A DNA stretch of 64,000 nt from Patiria pectinifera. Lineage: Eukaryota; Echinodermata; Asteroidea; Valvatida; Asterinidae. Positions 38,445 through 64,000 of the stretch are shown here, piece by piece (the stretch's first letter is position 1; each line of letters opens with the position of its first letter). Made by a program: the position numbers and the translations under genes. The stretch spans positions 9,512,863 to 9,576,862 of the forward strand of contig CM057135.1 of assembly GCA_029964075.1 (NCBI GenBank), in the 5' to 3' direction. The notes under the pieces are model-generated. The model was given only the letters and a program-made list of their open reading frames with translations. It did not search any database and was not told where the DNA came from.

Positions 38445-39528
38445 TTGCATACTTTGCACTTGAAGCGAATCATGGCAAGCAAATTCGATCTTAGTGACTT
38501 TGTAGCTAACTTTGAAGACTCTTCCTCGGAGAGTAAACTGAATACTTTGAAGCGTACTGAATTGTTTGACGTTGCTAAGCATTATAGTGTTTCTGTACTG
38601 TCTAGTATGAAAAAAGCAGATTTAAAGGCTGTACTTGTAGAGTTCTTTGTAGATGAGGGTAATGGGTATGCTAGAGTCAGAAATTGCAGGGCCTAGTCAT
38701 CACTCAGAACAAGCTAATATTAAACTCAAAGAAGTGAGTTAGAAATTCAAATCGAGCAAAGGAAAAAGGCCGAGATTGAATTAGGATTAGCTAAGTTAAA
38801 GCAGACTACGTCACATACACATACTAGTGCGTTCGATCCCAGTAAACACATTTGTTTAGTTCCACCATTTAAGGACAAAGAAATTGACAAGTATTTCGGG
38901 CATTTTGAAAAGGTAGCAGATAGGCTTCAATGGTTTTCAGTTATGCGTACTTTGTTGCTGCAAAGTGTCTTAACTGGTAAAGCACAAGAGTTGTATTCAG
39001 CTCTCCCTGTTGAACAAAGTTAAGATAAGCTAATTAAGTCGGCTATTCTAAAAGCGTATGAGCAAGTACCTGAGGCATATCGGCAGAAATTCAGGAATTC
39101 AAAAAAGCAGGATAGGCAGAATTATATTGAGTTCTCACGTGAGAAAGAATTTTTCTTTTCATAGATGGTGTAACTCTTGTAGTGTAGGCAAGGATTTTGC
39201 TAAGTTACGGCAGGTTATGCTGTTGGAGGACTTTAAGAGTTGTGTCCCAGATAATGTCAAAACACATTTAGAGGAACAACAAGTTAAAGAGTTACATCAG
39301 GCAGCTGTATTAGCTGATGATTATGTGTTGACACATAAAACACATTTTGCTAAGAGTAATGACTACTCTAGTAAACGTCGGGCTCGTAACAGTCCTCCAC
39401 GTTATAAGTCAGTAGATACTGATAAACCCGACAGTGCAAATTCAGGGACTAGTGCAAAAAAGGAAACATCTAGTAGTAGGTCAACCGTGACTTGTTCTTT
39501 TTGTAAGAAAACAGGCCTTGCTCCTTAA
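38445..39528 (+). pseudogene. gag of young Gmr1-like element, broken
   Basis: The first frame (38445-38696; the ATG at 38472 starts MASKFDLSDFV) gives an N-terminal part. After a shift the capsid region reads VPPFKDKEIDKYFGHFEKVA and AYEQVPEAYRQKFRNSKKQD, strikingly like SCAN-domain sequence. A further frame (39058-39528) holds QVMLLEDFKSCVPDNVKTHL and VTCSFCKKTG, the first half of a zinc knuckle. At least two shifts and three stops (around 38750, 39020 and 39163) interrupt it. The knuckle breaks off after CSFCKKTG, and the sequence jumps into the distal protease, showing an internal deletion of the knuckle end and protease start. Confidence 0.85.
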
Positions 39529-42500
39529 AGGTGCAGTTCCCTTAACTGATCAATCTTATGCAGGAACTAATGTATTGGTAACTGGTGTTGGTAATGATTG
39601 CATTGATGTGCCTCTTCATCATGTTAACTTACAGTCAGACTTGGTTTCAGGGCCTGTGACAGTAGGGGTGGCCCCAAGCCTACCGAAGGGATTAGAAGGT
39701 ATAACCTTACTCCTAGGTAATGATGTTGCTGGTCGCAAAGTGGTTGTTGAACCAGTAATGGATACATTTGCGAGTAGTGAAAATCACACTACTCAGCTGG
39801 AGGAAGATTTTCCGGGTATCTTTCCTTCATGTGTGACCACTAGATCAATGACTAGTAAGGATAAACTAACTAGTACTGAGTTCTTAGGTCAATCAGATGG
39901 CATTGATTTATCTGACACATTCATGAATGAATCTTCTATGCCATTTCAGGAAAATTTCCCAGGTGTTCAGTCACATGTTTCTAGTGATCTTTTCATTAGT
40001 AAAGAGGATTTGATAGCTGAACAAGGGAAGGATCCTACATTGATTAGCATAAGTAAGACTGCTTTAAGTGAAACTGAAGCTTCTAAGGTGCCTGTGTGCT
40101 ATTTCATTAGTAATGGCGTACTTATGCGGAAGTGGAGACCACCATATGTCTCTGCTGATGAAGAGTGGAAAGTTGTCAAACAAGTTGTTGTTCCTAAAAC
40201 CTATCAGAGTCATATAATGAGTTTAGCACACGACATCCCTATGGCTGGACACTTAGGTGTGACAAAGACCTGTGATCGTATTTTGCAGCATTTTTATTGG
40301 CCTAACCTTAGACGATCTGTAGCCAATTACTGCAAAACTTGTCATACTTGTCAGGTAGTTGGTAAGCCTAATCAGGATCCACCTAAAGCTCCTTTAAGGC
40401 CAATACCCACTTTGCTTGAACCATTCAGCCGAGTCATTGTTGATTGCGTTGGGCCATTACCCAAAGCTAGATCAGGACACCAGTACCTACTTACTATCAT
40501 GTGCTCGTCCACTAGATATGTTGAGGCTGTACCTTTAAGGTCGATAAAGGCCAAACCAGTAAGTGAAGCACTTATCTCATTCTTTACTCGTTTTGGTCTT
40601 CCCAAGGTAGTGCAAAGTGACCAAGGAACAAACTTTACATCTAAATTGTTCCGAGATCAACTCAGTGCTTTAGGCATTGATATTGTAACATCTAGTGCAT
40701 ACCATCCTCAAAGTCAAGGTGCACTTGAGCGATTCCACCAGACTTTGAAGTCCATGATCAAAGCTTATTGTACAGAGCATGATAAGGATTGGAATGAAGG
40801 TCTCCCTTTACTCCTCTTTGCTATCCGTGAGGTACCAAATGAGTCCCTAGGCTTTAGCCCATTTGAGCTTGTTTTTGGGCGTAATGTCAGAGGTCCATTA
40901 GCTCTAGTGAAAGAAAAGTGGTTAGGAGATGATCAAACTACTGACAGCGTTCTGAGTTATGTTGTAAAACTTAAAGAGCGTTTACAGAATGCTTGTGAAC
41001 TTGCACACAAGCACCTTCAGGGAGTTCAAAAAGAAATGAAAACTTGGTATGATCGTAAAGCTCGAGATCGTAGTTTTGCACCAGGTGATCAAGTCCTTGT
41101 ACTGTTGCCATTATTAGGTCAACCACTTCAGGCCCGTTATAGTGGACCTTATGTAATCGAACGTAAAATAGGTGACCTAGATTACATAGTTAAGACTCCT
41201 GATAGGCGAAAGAAAAGACAGTTGTGCCATGTTAACATGCTTAAGAGCTACCGTGTCAGACCAGCAGAAACTAAAACTGAGCCAGTAGCTGTAAGTGCAG
41301 TAGATTCTGATAGCGTAGATGATGGTCAGGTGCCAGGTGACAACATCAAGTTGAATAACTCAGAGATTTTGGCAAATCTAGATGTGAAATTGGAACATCT
41401 TACTCCAGAGCAGAAGTCAGAAATGTCAAATTTGTTGACTGAGAATAAGCAATTATTTTCTGATGTGCCCACAAAAACTGATATTGCCGAACACGATGTG
41501 GATGTTGGAAATGCCACACCAATGAAGCAACATCCTTATAGATGTGGACCAGTTAAACAGTCGCTCATGCACAAAGAAATCCAGTACATGAAAGAAAATG
41601 GTATAATCGAAGAGAGTAATAGCTCCTGGTGCTCTCCATGTATCTTGGTTCCTAAGTCAGATGGGTCTATGCGGTTTTGTACCGATTTCAGAAAAGTTAA
41701 TTCTGTGACTAAACCCGACACTTACCCACTTCCAAGAGTTGATGATTACATTGATAAGATTGGTAGTGCTAAGTTTGTAAGTACATATGATCTGTTGAAG
41801 GGATATTGGCAGGTGCCATTAACAACTCGAGCAAAAGAGATTTCAGCCTTTGTAACCCCACAGGGTCTGTACCAGTACAAAGTACTCCCTTTTGGCATGA
41901 TGAACGCCCCTGCCACATTTCAGCGTATCATGAATCAAATTACTGCAGGCTTAGAAAACACTGAAGTGTATATTGATGACATTGTTATATACAGTGATAC
42001 ATGGGAACAACATGTGGAGCAAACCAAATCTTTGTTCGATCGACTCTCCCAAGCTAAACTAACAGTTAACCTGTCGAAGAGTCAGATTGGGAAAGGCAAG
42101 GTTACTTTTCTGGGCCATGAAATCGGCCAAGGAGAAGTTCGGCCAGTAAACGCTAAGGTAGAAGCCATTGTGAATTTTCCCGAACCAAAAACAAAGAAAG
42201 AATTGATGCGTTTCCTTGGCATGGCTGGGTATTACAGGAAGTTTTGCCGTAATTTTTCGGATGTTGTTTCCCCACTAACAAACCTGCTTGCCAAAAACAC
42301 AAAATTCATTTGGAACGATGAATGCAATCAGGCGTTTGGAAAGATAAAGACCATGCTCACGTCTGCACCAATTCTTTCTGCTCCAGACTTTGATAAACCG
42401 TTTACACTTGTAACTGATGCTAGTGATGTTGGAGTAGGTTCTGTACTTGTACAAGAAGATGAATGTGGTATTATGCATCCAGTATGTTACTTCTCAAAAA

Positions 42501-42775
42501 AGTTGAACCGTCATCAAATGAAATACTCCACTGTTGAAAAGGAAACGTTGGCATTAGTTTTGTCTCTGCAACATTTTGAGGTGTATGTAGATTCAGCAGT
42601 GAAACCGATTGTAGTATATACAGATCACAACCCCTTGACGTTTTTGAACAAGATGAAAAACAAACACCAGAGACTGTTAAGATGGAGTTTGGCTCTTCAG
42701 CAATTTGCCATTGAAATTCGTCATATTAAGGGCAAAGATAATGTAATAGCGGACACTTTGTCCAGGTGTTACTAA
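39518..42775 (+). CDS. Gmr1-like pol: integrase - RT - RNase H
   Basis: One open frame of 1085 codons. Residues 1-80 are a protease remnant (GITLLLGNDV) without DSG/DTG. The integrase zinc domain has H238, H245, C272 and C275. The integrase core triad is D309, D368 and E404 (D-x35-E). The C-terminal GPY motif is near 543-545. RT spans about 660-860 with YIDD at 818-821. RNase H spans about 900-1080 with D967, E1007/E1009 and D1036. Integrase precedes RT, the Gmr1-group order. All catalytic residues of these three enzymes are present, so they could be functional. There is no good start codon context because the frame is meant to be expressed as a gag-pol fusion; the first in-frame codon at 39518 is TTG. 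Confidence 0.95.
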   Translation: MLLKGAVPLTDQSYAGTNVLVTGVGNDCIDVPLHHVNLQSDLVSGPVTVGVAPSLPKGLEGITLLLGNDVAGRKVVVEPVMDTFASSENHTTQLEEDFPGIFPSCVTTRSMTSKDKLTSTEFLGQSDGIDLSDTFMNESSMPFQENFPGVQSHVSSDLFISKEDLIAEQGKDPTLISISKTALSETEASKVPVCYFISNGVLMRKWRPPYVSADEEWKVVKQVVVPKTYQSHIMSLAHDIPMAGHLGVTKTCDRILQHFYWPNLRRSVANYCKTCHTCQVVGKPNQDPPKAPLRPIPTLLEPFSRVIVDCVGPLPKARSGHQYLLTIMCSSTRYVEAVPLRSIKAKPVSEALISFFTRFGLPKVVQSDQGTNFTSKLFRDQLSALGIDIVTSSAYHPQSQGALERFHQTLKSMIKAYCTEHDKDWNEGLPLLLFAIREVPNESLGFSPFELVFGRNVRGPLALVKEKWLGDDQTTDSVLSYVVKLKERLQNACELAHKHLQGVQKEMKTWYDRKARDRSFAPGDQVLVLLPLLGQPLQARYSGPYVIERKIGDLDYIVKTPDRRKKRQLCHVNMLKSYRVRPAETKTEPVAVSAVDSDSVDDGQVPGDNIKLNNSEILANLDVKLEHLTPEQKSEMSNLLTENKQLFSDVPTKTDIAEHDVDVGNATPMKQHPYRCGPVKQSLMHKEIQYMKENGIIEESNSSWCSPCILVPKSDGSMRFCTDFRKVNSVTKPDTYPLPRVDDYIDKIGSAKFVSTYDLLKGYWQVPLTTRAKEISAFVTPQGLYQYKVLPFGMMNAPATFQRIMNQITAGLENTEVYIDDIVIYSDTWEQHVEQTKSLFDRLSQAKLTVNLSKSQIGKGKVTFLGHEIGQGEVRPVNAKVEAIVNFPEPKTKKELMRFLGMAGYYRKFCRNFSDVVSPLTNLLAKNTKFIWNDECNQAFGKIKTMLTSAPILSAPDFDKPFTLVTDASDVGVGSVLVQEDECGIMHPVCYFSKKLNRHQMKYSTVEKETLALVLSLQHFEVYVDSAVKPIVVYTDHNPLTFLNKMKNKHQRLLRWSLALQQFAIEIRHIKGKDNVIADTLSRCY

Positions 42776-53197: not shown

Positions 53198-54172
53198 TTG
53201 AGAGTTTGCAGAGACCAGCTTGGATGTGTTTACACACAATTATTTCAGAATTCGCTTGATCAAGGCATTGTACCAACTTCGTGGAAAACTTCAACAGTTG
53301 TTCCTGTACCAAAAAGTTGCAAATGTGTTGAGTACAAAGACTTTAGGCCAACGTGCAATGTTATGAAGTGCCTAGAAAAATTAGTGCTGAAACAGGTCAC
53401 GAGTCAGGTCGGGAACCATCTTGACCCACTGCAATTTGCCTACCGCAATAACAGAAGTGTAGATGATGCAGTGTTAACTTTTCTCCACGGAACTTATAAC
53501 CATTTGGATGTTAGTAAGAACTTTGTCAGGGCACTGTTTGTAGACTTTTCAAGTGCATTCAACACCATAATACCACACCTGCTTGCAAACAAATTCGTAG
53601 AAATGCAAGCTCACCCCCAAATTGTGTTATGGATTCATAACTTTCTGCTAGATAGACCTCAGGTAGTAAGAATGGGAGCCATTAAGTCTGGTACCAAAGT
53701 ACTTAGCACAGGTGCACCACAGGGGTGCGTTCTATCCCCCGCATTGTTTTCCCTGTACACAAGTGAATGCGTTAGTGAAAATGAATCATGCACTATCATC
53801 AAATATGCAGACGATACGGCAATTACTGGTTTCCTAACAACGGAGAAAACAAATGACTACATCGCAGCTGTGAGGAGATTCACTGAATGGTGTGATGCTC
53901 ATCACCTTCAGTTGAATGTATCCAAAACAAAAGAACTGATATTCGACTTTCGAAGGAAAGCAGAACGACATGAACCGCTCGTTCTGCATGACAAAGAGGT
54001 TGAACAGGTGGGAAAAAACAAATATCTGGGAAACACAATCACTAACACACTTGATTGGACGAAAAACACAGAAGCTCTTCACAAAAAAGGGAATCAAAGA
54101 TTGTACTTTTTGAGAACCCTGAATAATCTTCATGTAGACAGACAATTTTGGTCTTGTTCTATCGGGCCCTAA
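53198..54172 (+). pseudogene. LINE D reverse transcriptase
   Basis: RT landmarks: KAAGPDRLCNRVL just upstream (about 53163), PTSWKTSTVVPVPK, DPLQFAYRNNRSVDDAVL, ALFVDFSSAFNTIIPHLL, STGAPQGCVLSPALFSLYT, IIKYADDTAITG (catalytic YADD), LNVSKTKELIFDFR and KYLGNTI. The 324-codon frame ends at 54172. A further frame, 54245-54493, holds the short conserved tail (CVPGTNRARFLQSFVPNSIH) and stop. Only the last shift at about 54150-54250 and upstream stops (near 52780, 52887 and 53033) break it. Confidence 0.9.
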
Positions 54173-54609
54173 TCCAAAGTGTACTGACGTACAACCTAGC
54201 GTGTTACTATGGAAATGCGACGCAGGTAAACAGGGATCGCTTAGATGGTGTTAGACGGGTGGCACAGCGTGTCATTGGACAAGACTAGCCTCCTCTCAAG
54301 TTATTTGTTTGAACAAAGAGGCATGACTAAAATGGACAAAATCATTGGTGATCAAAGTCATGCACTCAATGAGCACTACACATTCAATCGTTCTGGCATC
54401 AGGTTGTGTGTGCCAGGCACAAACCGAGCACGCTTCCTTCAGTCATTTGTACCAAACTCCATCCATATGTTCAACCAACTTGTCAAGCGATAGCTCAACC
54501 CTTGGTTATAAATATTTCTCCATACCCCTTGTAACTGTTATCTTCAGCCGCATGCAGTCAGTCGTAGAATTAGAAATTATTTTGTGTATATTGTTATGGT
54601 TTATAGTAA

Positions 54610-55077
54610 AGTATAACATATAGATTAAATGATAGTGGTATTAATTCACTTCTATTGGTTACTCATATTGTTAATTGAAATTTTGTTAGTCATTAGTTCA
54701 AATTAGTGTTTGATATATTTGCAAATGGACAACATTGCAAATTGCTCTCTCTATATTTTAAATTTGTACTGCTGGTGGAAAGCAAATTTCCGCATGCTTA
54801 TTGTGGACAATAAATTATTATATCATCAAATATCATCTTGTAGATGCTATTTGACAAAAAAGTTTCCATTGAATTTTGCAACTTAAATTGTTATATTTTC
54901 AAAACGCAAGGTCGTATGAAAATGATTTTAACATTATTGATTTTGTAGTGTAATTTTCTTTCCTATCATACTAAATTTCCAGTTTTGTAAAAAAAAAATG
55001 AAAATTTGCTGTATGTGCTGAACCAGTCCTGTTGATTGTGCGTAAGGCAACCGCGCGCAGTAACATAATGAACAGTA
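54610..55077. other. AT-rich intergenic DNA
   Basis: No gene or repeat supported. Confidence 0.4.
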
Positions 55078-55235
55078 TTGAAGCCCGGTTCATTTGACGT
55101 CATTAAACATTCGGTGCAAAATTCGCCCGAGTTTAAATATGTTCAACTTTTACGAATTCGCAGCGCGAGTACTCCCCATGACGTCACAAATTCGCGTTCG
55201 CTTTCGCTTTCGCGCAGAGTATGAACCGGGCTTAA
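55078..55235. mobile_element. TTAA-type MITE with AAGCCCGGTTCAT ends
   Basis: The left end TTGAAGCCCGGTTCAT (55078-55093) and the inverted right end ATGAACCGGGCTTAA (55221-55235) bound 158 bp. The interior has a CG-rich GCGTTCGCTTTCGC segment. The terminal TTGA/TTAA tetramers fit a TTAA target duplication, as in piggyBac- or Kolobok-type elements. The same ends are common in MITEs of many marine invertebrates (from memory). Confidence 0.75.
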
Positions 55236-55669
55236 CACCATATAAAAAACTTGCGCGCATTTGCTCAACGGCACGCTGAACGTAGCCTTCAACACGCAAA
55301 ACGTCAGACAAATCCAGGCTGTTCCTCCAAACTTTACGCTGTTCACGAAAGGTGGTGGGTGGTTTTAACCCACCTCGCCCGGCATTTTAAACTTGAAACA
55401 ATTCCCTTTCAAGTGGTGATATTTGTCAAACCATTTATATCCTAGCCGATAGGGCTCTTTTCGATTAAAAAATTGGTTCAAAAGCCAAAAAAGTGTCTTT
55501 CCTATGGAGGTCAACACAAATTTCCCATTTTTTCCGCGGGTCGTCTCACTAAATCGAACAGCACAATCGTTTGAAGCCCCCTGCGGTTTCACCTCGCACG
55601 CAAGATTAAGCCTTATAGTATGTCCTTTCATTTGATATAACAATAGTTTCTATTGGTCGAGAGGACATT

Positions 55670-57575
55670 AGGGCTCTTTCAAGTCCAATCATTGTATCCC
55701 TCTCTAAAAAGTCGGCGACCTCTATAATTTATGCTAAGTGACCCATAGTCTGGTTGCTGAATTTTCTCATAATATGATTCTACGCGCGTTGCTGCAAACG
55801 GGAACTAGACTATCCACGCACGCCACGTTGTCGTTGAAGAATTCTCATCAGCTTGCTCCGGTTACATTGCCGCGATTTGTTCCATTTCTCGTTATTCTTA
55901 CCTCAAGAAACCATTCTTGAGTATGCTGATAGATAGTGAAGTTATATAGTCACTATTCAAGTTGTGTGTTTCTTTTCTTTTGAAGAGAAATTGGTCATAT
56001 TTTACGACAAACTAACGGAGTGGTTTTCTTCTTCTTGTTCGGATTATAACATTTGCTTTTGAGGGGTGTACGTCGTACGGCATGGTGTACGGGTGTACGG
56101 CCTGCATGGCGCGCCCATAATTTCTTACTTATAAGTAAGTATTCACATGGTTTTTATTGTAATTATTATTAACTAAAAACAATGTTACTGTCATTATTTA
56201 TTTTTTATTGAGTACTTCTGCTTTTGTATTTCTAGACAGGCACAGGTCTTCAATCTTGTCGACATGACAGTCACTGTCAAATGGTCAATTTTGTCATGAA
56301 ATTGTAAAAAACAAAAACAAGCTGTTTGTGACATATTGTTATCAGAACGTTTTAAGTAATAATAGTAATATTTATGCTAAATATAGAGTGTGCTTTACAT
56401 TGACTGAGACATGTTTAGTATACGTCAAAATGGCAGTACTATAAATGAAGTTTTTTTGGCAGATTGGTCACGTTAGGCCATGTAGGCTTTGTCTGTTTGA
56501 AGTGGATTTTAAAATCATGACAATCTCATTCATGTCATTTGTCCCAATATATCATGTTATTTATATTTTTGCTTTCACCACAGTTATGCTAAATGGCCAA
56601 TATTGACCAACCAACAAATTCAAGAAGAAGTGAGAGAGCCAGGAAGCCGATCGACTATAAACAACTGAACAACGGCCCAGATTTGCCCAAGGGACAAAAG
56701 GAAATAAAAACGTGGTCCACAACTAAACTGTACCCGTTGGTTATAGTGGACTCGAAAGACATTGACGGGAAGCTTTTTGTCAAGGTACACTATACCGACG
56801 AAGAGTGGAACTCAACAGTGTACGACACATGGAGAGAAGCATCAGAGATCATTGACGTGCCTGAATTTTATTTAACATATACACCAGAGCTGAAGGCTCT
56901 CTTTGTTGATCAACTGAAAACGTCAATTAAGGAACATTTGCACGGCCAACGTAAAGTTGACAGCGCCGTTAAGATTGACTTAAGCATCCCTAAGAACTTG
57001 TTCGAGGACATAGCCACCCTTGGATGTGAGAGTAGGGGTTCTTGCCTAACCCTTCAGTCAACTGCTGACTTTAACTGCTTACTCGGCGAAGACTGGCACT
57101 GGCGAATTTTCAATTCCATGGGAGATTTTGCCTTCGTCACACCCGGTACTGTCACATTTTGGATAAAAGAGAGGAGACCACTGGAGGAGTATTCACCAGA
57201 GGGAGTACTGATACTAAAGCACCGGGGGTTTCGTTTTCACTTTAGATTTGCCCGTGGTATCGGGAACAATTTTGATTTCCAAAATTTCTTTTAATATATT
57301 TGCTGTACTGCCATCACACAACACATGATTTCCATTTTTTATGTGCTTAGATAGATCTCTCTCATAGGACGCCATCTTCGTAGGAAATTTACAACTGCGT
57401 GTTCAACGCAATAGCTGGGTGTGCGCGCATTGTGCAAAAATGTTCTAAATGGCACATGTGTTGCTTGAAATTTATCCAAAACACGGCGCAGCCAGTGCAC
57501 GTCTTGAAAATTTGACGCCCAAAATTTGGATGCACCTGGCAATCTGTTAGAAGTGACTTCATTTGAGAGAGCCCT
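55670..57575. mobile_element. 1.9-kb TIR-bounded segment carrying ORF 56593-57294
   Basis: AGGGCTCTTTCAAGT at 55670-55684 recurs inverted at 57561-57575 (reads inward AGGGCTCTCTCAAAT, 13/15). ATT flanks both ends (55667-55669, 57576-57578), a candidate 3-bp target duplication. A second AGGGCTCTTTTC copy lies outside at 55450. The interval includes a complete 234-codon frame. The short TIR makes the call tentative, though the exact 3-bp flanks support it. Confidence 0.5.
56593..57294 (+). CDS. Intact 233-aa ORF, chromo/tudor-like domain candidate
   Basis: ATG 56593 to TAA 57292-57294, no interruption. A short basic N-terminus (SRRSERARKPIDYKQLNNG) resembles chromatin-protein linkers. Residues about 45-90 (YPLVIVDSKDIDGKLFVKV, then HYTDEEWNSTVYDTW) have the beta-barrel pattern of chromo-barrel or tudor-knot domains, with an aromatic near each expected cage position. 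The C-terminal half is unrecognised (GEDWHWRIF, FRFHFRFARG). A pyrimidine-rich CTTTCACCACAG lies just 5' of the ATG and could be a splice acceptor. It lies 0.5 kb upstream of the transposase-like ORF in the same orientation, so a functional pairing is possible. The function is inferred only. Confidence 0.65.
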   Translation: MANIDQPTNSRRSERARKPIDYKQLNNGPDLPKGQKEIKTWSTTKLYPLVIVDSKDIDGKLFVKVHYTDEEWNSTVYDTWREASEIIDVPEFYLTYTPELKALFVDQLKTSIKEHLHGQRKVDSAVKIDLSIPKNLFEDIATLGCESRGSCLTLQSTADFNCLLGEDWHWRIFNSMGDFAFVTPGTVTFWIKERRPLEEYSPEGVLILKHRGFRFHFRFARGIGNNFDFQNFF

Positions 57576-57798
57576 ATTGCTTTGTTTTTATTATGTTATG
57601 CATTTATTCTTGTGTTCATGCACACTGTATGTAGACATGTAGTGTAGTTTTATATTGTAAAGATGGGCATAACCAGCAGGTAATTTCCACAAATCTTAAT
57701 CAGAAATTTCAATTAATGTCTTTGTGATCTAGGACATACATTGTATTTAAACTGTTTTCACTCTTTTCCACTGGCCACCTTCCTCCAATTTGTTCAGA

Positions 57799-60021
57799 AT
57801 GGATAAGTTTGGAACTTTTCTTATTTTTGTTCTGGGATGCTTTTGCATGGCCCGTGCTGTTTATGCCACTCCTGAGGAAACTTCTCACATTGTCCAAATT
57901 GATGTCAGTGAGATTTTTTTGTTCAACTTGATTAAGGATGTCAGTGGCCACTTGACTCAAGAACATCTGAGCACTGTATGGATGCGTATTATGACTCGAC
58001 ACCACCTTTCCCCTGACAAATTTAGCTTGAATTGCCTGAAGGCATTGGAAAGTAAACTTGGCCGACTGTGGCGATTGTGGAAATCCAAAAAGGGCTCATG
58101 TAGTAGGGCCAATTTGTTGAATAAATTTGAAAAGTCAACATACGCACTGAATGTTAACCATAAAACTGGAAGTCCCAGAAAACGGAAATTAGAACAGGAA
58201 GTGGAAGATGAGAAATCCAAAAGAAGGAAGTTGGAAAACAGTTTAAATGAAATGGACCAAGAACTGAGCAGGTGTAAGGACGCGAAACATGAGGCTGAGC
58301 GAAAATTAGAAAGACTCTCGAACCCCCAAAAACGTAAAAGAGGTGAGCGGGGAAGAAGCAAAGGTAAAATTGAATACAGTAAGAGTCAAAAGCGCCGTCA
58401 CAAATCCAAAAAAATGGAGGAAGTCAAAACACTGTTTGGAAAAGAGTTTGTAAGTGTAGAATTCAAAAATGAAGATGGGCAGATTGTTAAAGTAGCCTTC
58501 AATGAGGACAACTGTGGCCCGGTTGAAGTCATTGACAATGGTGACATTGATGAAATGATTTATATTATGGATTCATTCTTTGTCACTGATAGTGGTTATC
58601 ATGAAATTGCCCAACGCTACCCTTCACTTCCTAGAACATGCAAAATAATTAAACGTCGACACGAACTGAATGATTCCTTTGAAATTTTTACATTGAACGG
58701 GGAATATGAGGGTGTATATAGGTCTCTGAGAACAAACTTAATTCAATTCTTGACTAATCCTCCCAATGCCCATTTCATACAAGAGGGAAAGGTTAGAATC
58801 AAATTCAGTGGTGACGGTACAAGAGCAGGAACCAAAAAGCATATGATCAATGTAAGTTATACAGTAATCGGTGAAGAGCACTGTGCTTCTGAACGTGGAA
58901 ATTACCTGCTGGCTATAGTTCAATGTCCAGAGACAGGAGATGGTATCCAGAAAGCCTTGGCAAAATTAATTGCAGAATTTAACGATTTGGAATCTGTTGA
59001 GATTGGTGACAAATTGATTTACATTGAGAAGTTCATTGGTGGTGACCTTAAATTTCTCAACCAAGTCACTGGCATAGGAGGCTTTGCATCAACATTCTCC
59101 TGTCTCTGGTGTAAGTGCCCAAAACAAGAAAGGGCAGATGTAACCAAAAACTGGTCCATGATCGACACGGATAAGGGTGCTCGAACAGTAACAGAAATAA
59201 CCGAATGCGCTAAAAAGAGCAAGAAAGACAAAACCAAGTTCAACTGTAATGCTGCACCAATTTTTTCATCTGTCCCCATTGCTAGAGTAATTCCAGACAC
59301 CCTTCACCTCTTTTTGCGGATCATGGATCAGTTGGTCTACCAAATTACATTTTTCCTTCAACATTGTGACAACTGTGTACGGCTCAATCCAAATCTCAAT
59401 CTAGATAAGTGTGGCAACCTCATGCGGTTTCAGGAATTTATAAAGAAAGTTGGAATTACTGATTGGAAATTTGTGATTAAGGAGTCCAAAATTGAAGCAC
59501 GATCGTTTACTGGTCCAGAACATAGGCGAATATTGAAAAACATCGACCTTGACACAATCATTCCCGATCACCCAAAACTTGAAAATATAAAAACACTATG
59601 GAACTCTTTTCAACAAATGGTTGACAAGTTAAATATGAACTTGGATTCTGAGGAGATTGACCAGTTTGAGTCTTCTGCCAAGAACTGGTTAGACTTGTAT
59701 CGCACTGTTTATCTGGCTAAGGATATTACTCCTTATATGCATGTACTAGCCTACCATGTACCCGAGGTTATGAGAATGTATGGGAACCCAACTTTTTTCT
59801 GTCAGCAAGGGCTAGAAAAATTAAATGACTTGGTAACCAAGTGGTACTTCCGTTCCACTAACTTCGGCAAAACTGCACTTAAACAAATCATGCAAAAGCA
59901 AAATCGTCTACGTTTACTGGAGGCCAAGTGTAAGCGATCTCTCAAGTGGCATGTCACATGCAGTATTTGCAAAAGACAAGATGGTCACAACAAAGCAAGA
60001 TGCCCTGAGCAGATCCGTTAA
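57799..60021 (+). CDS. Intact 740-aa RAG1/Transib-type transposase-like protein
   Basis: One uninterrupted frame. ATG 57799 is chosen over the in-frame TTG at 57790 because a pyrimidine-rich acceptor-like TTTGTTCAG ends two bases before it. Layout: hydrophobic/helical N-terminus (1-120), coiled coil (about 127-177), basic stretch (about 178-205), RNase-H-like core with FSGDGT (D339) and FIGGDLKFL (D416), then CLWC (C435, C438), PDTLHLFLR (499-507), H648-x4-H653-VPEV and QGLEKLND (E673). A terminal zinc knuckle has C721, C724, H730 and C735 (CSICKRQDGHNKARC). In RAG1 the known residues are D600, D708, C727, C730, H937, H942 and E962. Spacings from the second Asp are 19, 3, 210, 5, 20 here against 19, 3, 207, 5, 20. 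This supports a DDE transposase of that fold, active or domesticated. Absence of stops suggests recent activity or selection. Confidence 0.75.
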   Translation: MDKFGTFLIFVLGCFCMARAVYATPEETSHIVQIDVSEIFLFNLIKDVSGHLTQEHLSTVWMRIMTRHHLSPDKFSLNCLKALESKLGRLWRLWKSKKGSCSRANLLNKFEKSTYALNVNHKTGSPRKRKLEQEVEDEKSKRRKLENSLNEMDQELSRCKDAKHEAERKLERLSNPQKRKRGERGRSKGKIEYSKSQKRRHKSKKMEEVKTLFGKEFVSVEFKNEDGQIVKVAFNEDNCGPVEVIDNGDIDEMIYIMDSFFVTDSGYHEIAQRYPSLPRTCKIIKRRHELNDSFEIFTLNGEYEGVYRSLRTNLIQFLTNPPNAHFIQEGKVRIKFSGDGTRAGTKKHMINVSYTVIGEEHCASERGNYLLAIVQCPETGDGIQKALAKLIAEFNDLESVEIGDKLIYIEKFIGGDLKFLNQVTGIGGFASTFSCLWCKCPKQERADVTKNWSMIDTDKGARTVTEITECAKKSKKDKTKFNCNAAPIFSSVPIARVIPDTLHLFLRIMDQLVYQITFFLQHCDNCVRLNPNLNLDKCGNLMRFQEFIKKVGITDWKFVIKESKIEARSFTGPEHRRILKNIDLDTIIPDHPKLENIKTLWNSFQQMVDKLNMNLDSEEIDQFESSAKNWLDLYRTVYLAKDITPYMHVLAYHVPEVMRMYGNPTFFCQQGLEKLNDLVTKWYFRSTNFGKTALKQIMQKQNRLRLLEAKCKRSLKWHVTCSICKRQDGHNKARCPEQIR

Positions 60022-61045
60022 ATCAATCATTGATGAACCATTTCAGTTGAAATTTCAACCTTCAAACAGTGTATACTTATTTTATGTCTAAAAACAAGGC
60101 ATACATCCAGAAGTCAGTTTTTGTGTGTGTTCGTTTTCTTCATTCACCTACATAGAGAAACTTACCGAATGTAATGCTTCTCATTTTTAAGTGTTTGTAT
60201 TAAGAGGCTTTTGTATCTTTTTGAAAATTGTGATGTGCTGTGTTGTAGTTTAGTTTGTATATTGTATTAGTCAATGCCTATATTAATGATATACATGTAT
60301 TGTTATCACTTGGGTAACTTGCCATTCACTTCACTCAGGTGTTGTCTTGATGATTGAAGTTTTTAACCAAGCAGCTACATTTTTGTTGTTTTTAGTTTGA
60401 TTCAGACAAGTTTTGGATCATGAAGTGTGCTATTAACTTAAGTAGTGAGTTGATACAGTTAACATTTATTTTTTTAAATCTTTATGCAAGTACAACCTTG
60501 CAATTTAGTTATACTTGTAAACGTTCTTTCATGACATATGTTAATCACTCAGGTAACTTGCCATTCACTTCCCTCAAGTTTTGTCTTGATGGTTGAAGAT
60601 TTTTTATTTTTTTAACTAAGCAGCTAAATGGAGTTTTCAGTATGATTCATCCTGGTTTTGGATCACGAACAGTTGAATGCATTGTGCTTTTCATTTAAGT
60701 AATTAACGAAGTTTGGATTTTCTATTACATGTTTAAATATGCCAGTACCTTGTTTGCCAATTTATATGCCACTGTATGCGTTTCTTTTACTCAAGGAAAG
60801 TGTTAACGTTATTGTTTTCAATATTTAAGTTTACTGGAGAGTTTTATTTGGACTTTAAAATGTTTATTGGTACACAAATCCATTATCAATGCCCATGACT
60901 TGTTCTTCATTGAGAGAATAAAGACAACTCATGTTTCAGCCAAATTTCTAAATGAAGTATCTTTGATATAGTTTAATATTCATATTTTATGTCAGTTTTT
61001 CTCTATTCAACATGATGAAGAACATAAAGTGAATAAAACTTTGCT
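60022..61045 (+). other. 3' UTR of the transposase-like gene, with poly(A) signals
   Basis: AT-rich and non-coding. AATAAA hexamers lie at about 60917 and 61032; either could end the transcript. It contains the duplicated block described separately. Confidence 0.5.
60290..60710 (+). repeat. ~245-bp imperfect tandem duplication in 3' UTR
   Basis: GGGTAACTTGCCATTCACTT (about 60312) recurs as AGGTAACTTGCCATTCACTT (about 60551). Both are followed by TCTTGATG(A/G)TTGAAG, AAGCAGCTA and GTTTTGGATCA in the same order. Confidence 0.75.
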
Positions 61046-62870
61046 AATTTTGAAGTATAAAGTGTGTGTACATGTGTTTCCTGTACATGTGTGTACCTCT
61101 GCTGTTTCCTCTCCCCTATTGTGATAATGATGTAGTCCACTGACATGGTTGGTTGTTTATGTGCACAGAGGTCAGTGCATTCCTCTGTGATTGCATAATC
61201 CACACACACACACACGGGTCAAATCTTTTATGCTCAAAATCGGCTCAAAGTTTTCCATATGTAAATAAAATCGTGCATACACACACACAACTTGCCGCTC
61301 GAAAACCCACCGGCTACTTTCACAATTTATTTCAGAGAACATAATGTCCCAGACTTACCGTTCGTGTTTTTATGGCGACTGATGTCAAAAGTGGCTATAA
61401 TGTCCTTCATCAAAACTGTAAAATGCTCAGCTTCTTCAGAAATAACGAATTTCTGGGGTCATTTTTCCATGCAACTGTGGAAAGCAACAACAAGATGTCC
61501 GTTATGACGAGGCGTTCAAACTGTAGTCTTCCATTCAAATCGTTTATTACACGAGTTATTCTACCAGAAAAAGAGACATGACCTTTTAAGTGTGAATTTC
61601 CATAATAATACCCTACCAGCCAATCGAAAACCTGAATTTTGAGAGGGTGTGAAAATAACCAGGGGAAATTCAAGGTTTGGTATGCTCTGCTCTTCGTCAG
61701 GAGACAAAGGGATACCATCACCCCCAAGAACTGCTATGTAGGTTGACTGGGGCAGGGAATGCTACATGTAGCTTATTCATTGGAGTATCAGTGCAATGGA
61801 AGGAAGTTGTGAAAAAAAGTTGTCAAGGGTATACGAGACACATAGACTGACTAAGGTGTGGGGAACTAAGCTTTCCGAACGTATAGGTGACCCATTGGAT
61901 TGTCTGGAAGAGGATTAGGCACCAGATGTCCCTGATAGATGAACCAATTAATATATTGGGGAACCGTGTCATGGAATAGACATAGTGATTTTACTCAGAC
62001 TGTACAGTATTTCCAGGCAACTGTTGGTCTCTTGCATCCGATTGGGACAATTGGCGATCACTACAACTCTATGGTAGTCTTGGGCAACTGAGTACATGTA
62101 GTAGTAGAAGTGGGGAGGTCACTATAACAGCCTCGTCGATGTACACTTTGTTAACATTGGCATGGGATCTAAAGATTCCGAGTCTGAACGTTTGGTCGTG
62201 CTGATTCTTGTAAGATTGCAGCATATTGTGGTTTTCAGGGGTGCTTTATGTAAACTTTGATGCCGTGCTTCTGGTGTTCTGCCGTGATGATGGTGGTTTG
62301 CTCAACTGTTTTCATGAACATGTGACCCACCACCCCAAAACCAGGCCGATGTCGAAAAAATTTTTAAAATAAGATTTTTACACGTTTGGATTTCTCGTAT
62401 TGTAAGCTTTAAAATAAGTTATAGTTGACTGATATAGGTGGTATACTTTTGAAGTTATGACTTCTTAGAAATCGGGAGTCTTAAAGGAGGCTTTTAAGAA
62501 AATGAGCGTTAAAGTCAGAGTTAAAGTAAACCAATAACTCACTCACACAATGAACCACAACAATCACCTTAGCCACCACCTTCTTGTACTGCATGCAGAC
62601 TGTTTTACCTATGTAAAACTGTTCAATGGAACCAAACCAACTTTTAAAACTTTACATTAATATCATACATTTAATATTTTTTTAGTTATGACATTTTTAT
62701 GTCATACTGATTATACGTGAAATAACTAACGTCAGTCTGGAAAATTTTTTTCCACAAACACTGTTTTATGATTTACATGAAGTGATGTTGTTTCTTTATT
62801 TTTTTACACTTCACACACTGGTTTAATAAGTTAGGAATAAGAAGAAATTTACAACCCACCCTCCTGGTAT
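61046..62870. other. Intergenic DNA with (CA)n tracts, no gene seen
   Basis: Short CA repeats lie at 61200-61215 and 61280-61290. Overlapping short frames around 61290-61730 lack motifs. A GTGACCCACCACCCCAAAAC motif at about 62321 looks like a dispersed-repeat edge, but its partner was not found. Confidence 0.4.
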
Positions 62871-62879
62871 GGAAAAAAG

Positions 62880-63260
62880 ACTCCATCAAAGTCCGGGCAC
62901 CCCCCCCCCGACCCCCAACCATTTCCCGCCCCTTTATTTACACACGCATTACATTTACACTTCATTTAAGTGGTGGGTACCAAAATAGGCCAAGGGGTGG
63001 GGTTAATGACCAAAACACACCCCTTCAGCATCATATCCCCTATCACCTCCCCCCCCCCAAGTACGGATCCAGGGGGGCGGGGCATGCCCAGGCCCCCCTC
63101 TGAGGATTTTTTTTTTTTTTTTTTTTTTTGCTGAAGAAATTGGTTAGAGTGGTTAGATATGGCCTGAGATCGCACCACAGAGCATCTAAAATCAAAAATT
63201 TTCTGGACCCCATGCCGTTAGGGCTTTGTACATTATTTTCACGCCCTCCCCCCTTTTTGG
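62880..63260. repeat. Low-complexity C-rich and T(21) stretch
   Basis: C-runs at 62900-62910 and 63045-63060 and a T-run at 63108-63129. The frames across it are homopolymer artefacts. Confidence 0.6.
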
Positions 63261-63571
63261 AAAATCCTGGATCCGTTCCTGCCCCCCAACTTTTACACTT
63301 GACATTGTCCATGGTGATTGTGAATGCGATAAATCATAATCAGATGACCCGGCTTATTACGACGCAACCCCCATACCCAAAACATTATCCCACCCCAACC
63401 TTACCAGCACCCCACCCCTACCAACTCCAGCAGCATGCGTAAAGAGCATGTACATGTACATGCATGTCGGACTTTTGACTTTTGGTTGTGAAATCACAGT
63501 TGCAATTTGTCGATACATTCTGGGGCTGAACTAAATTTATCGGTCTATTGTGTACCCATTAATGGTGAATG

Positions 63572-64000
63572 CTAAACATCATCAGCTGGAGCAGGGCAGA
63601 CCAAGTCTTTGGTTTCCTTTGTGCAGAATGGTCGGATGTGTTCGTACAGATACTTTCGTCTGTCCCGATCCAAGCCAGCGGGCCGGATGACATTTGGCAT
63701 TCCAATAAGAATTTCCCGACACTGAAGAACGTCCTCTGTGGGTGGAGACTCTACGTACAACTTGCAAACAATGACACCAGGTCTGTCATTGGTAATTTTG
63801 AAGTGATGGTTGATCTTAACCCCTTTTATCTTCCGGTATGCTGGGGTGAGGAATGACACCCAGTCGTACGTTGGTACAAGGACAGTGCCATCTTCAAGGC
63901 CAACCAATTGGGGGATGTTGATTTTACGCTCTGTTGACTTGAAGACAACATCAGCTATTTCATTGAGCGATGATACTTTTGTCTTCCGGAAGAGACGTTT
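63572..64000 (-). CDS. C-terminus of conserved-looking ORF, runs off the window
   Basis: The minus-strand frame is open from the window end (64000) to the stop at 63572-63574, 142 codons. It reads KTKVSSLNEIADVVFKSTER, LVPTYDWVSFLTPAYRKIKG, INHHFKITNDRPGVI, VIRPAGLDRDRRKYLYEHIR and a final FC...DLVCPAP. It resembles the C-terminal region of uncharacterised, multi-copy invertebrate proteins in which a TYDW segment, an HHF segment and a CP.P end are shared (recalled, not searched). No catalytic motif lies in the visible part. An uninterrupted frame and balanced composition make it a likely real gene or a young transposon ORF. Confidence 0.6.
   Translation of the reverse strand, partial: KRLFRKTKVSSLNEIADVVFKSTERKINIPQLVGLEDGTVLVPTYDWVSFLTPAYRKIKGVKINHHFKITNDRPGVIVCKLYVESPPTEDVLQCREILIGMPNVIRPAGLDRDRRKYLYEHIRPFCTKETKDLVCPAPADDV

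Follow-up and report, generated by a model that had tools for sequence, protein, structure and literature searches.

We analysed a stretch of 64,000 nucleotides (the window) from Patiria pectinifera, located at C7:9512863-9576862 of its 613.5-Mb genome. Two of its open reading frames (ORFs), both on the forward strand, are described here: ORF A (56593-57294, 233 amino acids), which encodes a putative chromo-barrel protein, and, downstream of it, ORF B (57799-60021, 740 amino acids), which encodes a protein with a predicted RAG1-core fold. RAG1 is the enzyme that assembles antibody genes, and together with RAG2 it is the textbook example of transposon domestication. ORF B belongs to an animal transposon family in which a chromo-barrel gene accompanies the transposase on the same strand and recent members end in CA..TG; the core of its protein is predicted to be a DDE RNase H fold split by a zinc domain. 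We consider it highly probable that this protein would work as a cut-and-paste transposase of the RAG/Transib type.

ORF B carries the residues of a RAG1-type active site

ORF B extends from an ATG at 57799 to a stop at 60021 without internal stops, as an earlier note made from the sequence alone had stated, and the residues named there (D339, D416, C435, C438, H648, H653 and E673) were found at those positions, with successive gaps of 77, 19, 3, 210, 5 and 20 on recounting. Conservation was assessed in an alignment (A4) of 43 rows, comprising 39 of 70 proteins (the window protein and P0002-P0070) and 4 copies from the same genome; the 31 proteins not used include many short or partial sequences. 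The 69 proteins besides the window protein came from three protein searches, the third of which scored only the 7999 candidates with the most words shared. Named relatives are from echinoderms (Lytechinus, Patiria, Holothuria and Apostichopus), with more distant ones in scallops.

The putative catalytic residues are D339 (58813-58815), which lies within a strand of the structural model (residues 331-343), D416 (59044-59046) and E673 (59815-59817), while the predicted zinc site is made up of C435-x-x-C438 (59101-59112, ZnC2-like) and H648-x4-H653 (59740-59757, ZnH2-like). D339, D416, D500 and H503 are invariant (43/43 rows), and C435, C438, H648, H653 and E673 are each identical in all 42 rows in which the residue is present. 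H503 (59305-59307), in a DTLH motif, aligns with the His of a RAG1-like (RAG1L) protein encoded in the same genome, and its equivalence by motif would make it the counterpart of the RAG1 active-site His, given as H795 in the part of PMC7204232 used here. In view of this conservation, the agreement of the residue pattern with RAG1 is more than chance.

These residues lie in a RAG1-core-like region (residues 244-715, 58528-59943). It is preceded by an N-terminal alpha/beta domain (residues 30-121, 57886-58161, model pLDDT mostly >85), probably a DNA-binding part, and by a predicted coiled-coil helix (residues 128-174, 58180-58320), and is followed by a zinc knuckle, CSICKRQDGHNKARC (residues 721-735, 59959-60003), whose motif occurs in 29 of the 43 rows. 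The earlier note had taken both the coiled coil and the knuckle to be additions to the RAG1 plan. Both are present, but the knuckle is not foreign to RAG1-type proteins: it aligns in hhalign with that of the own-genome RAG1L, and a Cx2Cx3GHx4C tail is described for invertebrate RAG1L in the consulted part of PMC7204232. The coiled coil and the different N-terminus do set the window transposase apart from RAG1 and RAG1L. Absent from the earlier note are the companion ORF, the terminal repeats and the hydrophobic leader treated below.

Two further observations concern individual relatives. In P0020 (Holothuria leucospilota), named in the database as proline-rich transmembrane protein 1, most of the transposase is fused to a CD225 membrane domain, which is either a gene-model error or a real fusion. 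Residues 275-373 of the L011 transposase gave a weak match, just under the cut-off, to PF06918 (DUF1280; 9.7e-5), a family that may be a relative.

Broad profiles and the predicted fold point to RAG1

The proposal in the earlier note that ORF B is a RAG1/Transib-like transposase is supported by broad sequence profiles, by the register of hhalign alignments and by the predicted fold. Both the A3 (16 rows) and A4 profiles, when run against all PDB sequences, placed RAG1 and RAG1L on top (A3: zebrafish RAG1 7.7e-5, amphioxus RAG1L 1.6e-4; A4: RAG1 8.4e-7, RAG1L 1.7e-4), the A4 score being the sum of two RAG1 stretches that are each weak singly (best 0.055, a zebrafish stretch). Among the first 25 of 116 Pfam families, the one matched by most A4 members was RAG1 (PF12940; 9/43 at E<=10, best 8e-6), and CACTA, KDZ and hAT families were absent; in the earlier set A2, PF12940 was matched by 2 of 30 members at E<=1 (best 0.0016).

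The same genome holds a true RAG1-like gene, L028 (C7:13017885-13019549, reverse strand; 246 bits, one stop). Alignment of A4 by hhalign with the second piece of this gene (329 amino acids) gave P 2.9e-10 and a probability of 96.8 over query residues 411-737 (A3: 1.8e-8), compared with best values of 0.0067 among 30 shuffles and 0.064 among 4 decoy ORFs; the longest open frame of the window (39518-42775, 1085 amino acids) served as a decoy. On the strand opposite L028 and near it lies an ORF that resembles a RAG2L PHD finger by eye, a probable remnant of a RAGL transposon.

In the RAG1 alignments D416, CxxC, HxxxxH and E673 fall on their RAG1 counterparts, and hhalign against the own-genome RAG1L repeats this register. 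The first Asp is outside the coverage of these alignments, and since the sequence match is limited to query residues 411-737, it backs the second half of the core, with D339 relying on its conservation, the model and its local context. When the model was compared with solved structures, RAG1 and Transib fitted far better than hAT or P-type transposases, and the predicted fold combines a RAG1 core with the D, D, E residues and the zinc site. Nearly all of these fold matches leave out residues 1-243, the part in which counterparts of the RAG1 nonamer-binding domain and N-terminal zinc fingers would be sought.

The element and its recently mobile relatives

The whole element measures about 6.0 kb (55239-61261, forward strand, left end provisional) and has the same order and spacing of terminal inverted repeat (TIR), ORF A, ORF B and TIR as four families (A-D) found elsewhere in the genome. 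Its right TIR, which begins CATATGGAAAACTTT when read inwards (61223-61261, reverse strand), is 87% identical over 38 bp to that of L020, with which the right end is shared, and has 1 mismatch in 15 bases against the consensus of the other families. The candidate left TIR, CATATAAAAAACTTG (55239-55253), has 4 mismatches of 16 against the right repeat and is backed by its CATA start and its spacing to ORF A (1.35 kb, similar to the 1.1-1.2 kb of families B-D). Two smaller features were seen: by eye, a small stretch that resembles an element, with the inverted ends AAGCCCGGTTCAT and ATGAACCGGGCTT, adjoins the candidate left end (55082-55236), and the 3' part of the element holds two 67-bp copies that are 85% alike and separated by 239 bp (60298-60603).

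A search of the genome yielded at least 62 transposase-family matches (60 of 93 candidates scored), which fall into at least 39 loci when matches within 15 kb are grouped. A BLAST comparison of 14 of these loci and the window revealed near-identical blocks at unlike sites: L017/L022 (99.6% over 5249 bp), L015/L016 (99.1% over 5268 bp), L011/L012 (98.1% over 4987 bp) and L009/L010 (97.7% over 4277 bp). A search for inverted repeats confined to 54000-64000 failed to show the element's ends, which were revealed by these near-identical copies: the blocks stop at inverted repeats that begin CATATG or CATAACG. The repeats are CATATGGAGAAGTT in family A (L011, L012, L013), CATATGAATT in family B (L015, L016), CATATGGAAAAGTTT and CATATGAAAACGTTT in family C (L017, L022) and CATAACGAAAA in family D (L009, L010, L018, L019), and all 11 sharply ended copies of these families have 5'-CA..TG-3' termini. 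Searching the genome for the exact pattern of the family A end gave 9 occurrences, and the reversed pattern, used as a control, gave none. Coding sequences of three young pairs differ by 0.37% (L009/L010), 0.58% (L015/L016) and 0.78% (L011/L012), indicating that movement was recent.

The nearest relatives of the window copy are fragments on C7 that are 93-100% identical (L023, L024), followed by L020/L021 at about 69%. C7, with 7.3% of the genome, accounts for at least 23 of the 39 family loci; the binomial probability of 9e-17 is overstated because the loci are partly local duplicates. Pfam RAG1 matches are likewise concentrated there (4 of 5), raising the question of whether this chromosome is special in some way or serves as a haven for elements of this type.

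A chromo-barrel gene accompanies the transposase

A relative of ORF A (E 1e-4 or better) was found at 17 of 18 loci (L009-L026), all of which had been picked by their transposase match; the relative at L025 amounts to 37 amino acids, and L026 has none. A profile of ORF A proteins (A5; 9 rows from 5 distinct families) matched the chromo barrel of MRG15 (1.3e-6), ARID4A (3.5e-6) and L3MBTL3 (9.3e-6) in PDB, while single ORF A sequences stayed below the curated cut-offs of the Pfam chromo families (best 3.4e-4). V65, Y67, W72 and W80 are unchanged across the 9 rows; such residues form the aromatic cage of chromo barrels, and invariance is what would be expected for a cage. ORF A resembles MRG15/EAF3-type proteins in its chromo-barrel region but differs from them in having an additional C-terminal half, likewise conserved, for which no match is known. 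The PHD finger of RAG2 reads histones, and we propose by analogy that ORF A may parallel RAG2 in this function.

One clade shares a putative hydrophobic leader

The first 23 residues of ORF B (57799-57867) form a hydrophobic, signal-peptide-like leader that is found across the clade of the window protein (18 rows, tree support 100/100). In 17 clade proteins the best 12-residue mean hydropathy of the start is 1.9-3.7 (at least 2.6 in 16), and all 17 have a site by a crude (-3,-1) rule; P0016 has a short leader only, and partial proteins lack that end. Copies in the same genome include L015 (2.63, site present) and L022 (2.77, site absent). Rows outside the clade reach at most 2.12 in the hydropathy scan, and family A (L011) has no leader. 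In the tree, the label of family C (L017) comes from its sister copy L022 and that of family D from its open frame. The placement of P0023, P0059, P0063 and family B (L015), all of them long branches, is unsure.

It is quite possible, if somewhat short of an even chance, that this leader is not translated at all, being pyrimidine-rich sequence close to a splice site, with the true protein start further on. Read by eye, a splice-acceptor-like pyrimidine tract ending in CAG (57775-57797) stops one base before the window ATG, and in family D the leader frame has no ATG ahead of it and no (-3,-1) site, with the first Met just past the leader. Set against this are the retention of hydropathy and site across the clade even though the letters change, and the lower hydropathy outside it.

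Observations that do not fit

Several findings count against a RAG/Transib-type transposon. Run alone against Pfam and PDB, the window protein gave nothing useful and no RAG1 match; profile A1 (23 close relatives) retrieved coiled coils only from PDB; and the first piece of L028, which contains the first Asp, had no hhalign match to A4 (P 0.063). The left end at 55239 is provisional because the right repeat finds equal or better matches elsewhere (at 54722, for example, with 3 mismatches). The right flank of the window copy, as a DNA query, matches only itself as a single copy, and this copy is older than the recent family copies. A secretory-type leader is ill-suited to a nuclear enzyme and does not fit.

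Target-site duplications are a further difficulty. RAG and Transib make 5-bp duplications, and hAT elements 8-bp ones. Only one of the 11 sharply ended copies has an exact duplication (L017, ATCAG, 5 bp); two have an exact 2-bp match (L019, L022), and the other eight none. L012 has GAAATC displaced by 3 bases, and the remaining copies showed no duplication of 4 bp or more with shifts of up to 3 allowed. An 8-bp duplication was found in none of the 11. This scarcity is unexpected in such young copies; candidate explanations are target deletion, junction filler or re-insertion by end joining.

Comparison with known systems and alternative explanations

The RAGL (ProtoRAG) transposon differs from the window family in having a convergent RAG2L gene (kelch, mostly with PHD) where the latter has a chromo-barrel gene on the same strand. 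Its ends are of the CACT type, resembling a recombination signal sequence or Transib TIR, in contrast to the CATATG or CATAACG of families A-D, and a 5-bp duplication, as made by RAGL, is exact in one of the 11 sharply ended copies of the window family. The CACT consensus and the RAG1L domains are described in the part of PMC7204232 used here. Known Transibs encode one protein, according to the consulted part of PMC4411706, whereas the window family has two genes, and its ends are unlike Transib/RSS-like termini (for Transib, in part after PMC4411706).

The wider CMCT clade (EnSpm/CACTA, Mirage, Chapaev, Plavaka, ESTA, Lanisha) is defined, in the portion of PMC12730594 that we draw on, by C(2)C and H(3-4)H motifs between the second D and the last E, by 5'-CA..TG-3' termini and by target-site duplications of 2-5 bp. 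The window family shares the motifs (C435/C438 and H648/H653) and the termini, the lineages being compared by description only; exact duplications were seen in a minority of the 11 copies, of 5 bp in one and of 2 bp in two. Since it has the CMCT motifs and ends, lacks both the RAG2L gene and the ends of RAGL, and departs from the one-gene plan of Transib, the window family would by those tests work like a RAG/Transib transposase and fit the wider CMCT clade, while being neither a RAGL nor a Transib element.

A lesser but real possibility follows from the same comparison, namely that the family is a divergent branch within one of the named CMCT lineages (Chapaev, Mirage, EnSpm/CACTA, Lanisha, ESTA), perhaps already in a transposon library, and shares a clade-wide signature with RAG1. 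Similarity to RAG1 is itself reported for CMCT lineages in that portion of PMC12730594. On the other side stand the Pfam results, in which RAG1 led and CACTA, KDZ and hAT were absent among the first 25 of 116 families, and the open-licence PMC literature, where no CMCT element of this kind was found. To our knowledge these lineages have few or no solved structures, and their absence from the fold comparison is no evidence against them.

Domestication of ORF B as a host gene, which the earlier note had allowed for, is very unlikely. The intact ORF does sit in an old, single-copy context, and against L020 its nonsynonymous divergence (dN 0.19-0.37) is well below the synonymous (dS 2.4 or saturated). 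Both points speak for domestication, but purifying selection is expected in transposase lineages too; the young pairs show dN/dS of 0.61-0.87, based on 8-17 changes. Against it, the companion gene and right TIR are retained, fragments 94-98% identical occur elsewhere on C7, and the family has many copies and a record of recent movement. A hAT or P-type transposase with RAG1 spacing by chance is extremely improbable: P element and hAT (Hermes) share an RNase H core with an insertion, but this identity is refuted by the A4 profile match to RAG1, the hhalign match to the own-genome RAG1L and the fold comparison.

Proposed mechanism and implications

If ORF B is a RAG/Transib-type transposase, a dimer would pair both inverted repeats through the N-terminal and pre-RNase H regions and nick the DNA beside the CA end. 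The second strand would then be cleaved by RAG-style hairpin chemistry at D339, D416 and E673, with H503 assisting, and the ends joined to a new site. By analogy with the PHD finger of RAG2, the chromo-barrel protein could be an accessory subunit, binding methylated histones and directing the element to its sites of action. Least certain of these steps, the leader may give rise to a membrane-routed or precursor form, with a shorter isoform doing the nuclear work.

Taken as a whole, a bolder proposal is rather unlikely but worth stating: that this is a recently active lineage of RAG1-fold transposons in animals, so far undescribed, which independently paired a RAG1-type transposase with a histone-reading chromo barrel (where RAG2 has a PHD finger), inserts mostly without duplications and, in one clade, bears a secretory-type leader, its activity perhaps gated by routing. 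The open-licence PMC literature, a search that did not extend to Repbase, yielded no description of this transposon family or of a leader-bearing DNA transposase. Two features would each be surprising on their own: a leader conserved across a clade of DNA transposases, provided that it is translated, and the lack of target duplications at young insertions. The family may open a separate perspective on the origin of RAG-type systems: as a sister-type system with intact, near-identical copies in a living animal and a reader partner of another fold, it would provide a new outgroup for RAG evolution, and would make it testable whether histone readers have been paired with RAG1-type enzymes repeatedly, as a recurring solution, or in a single accident.
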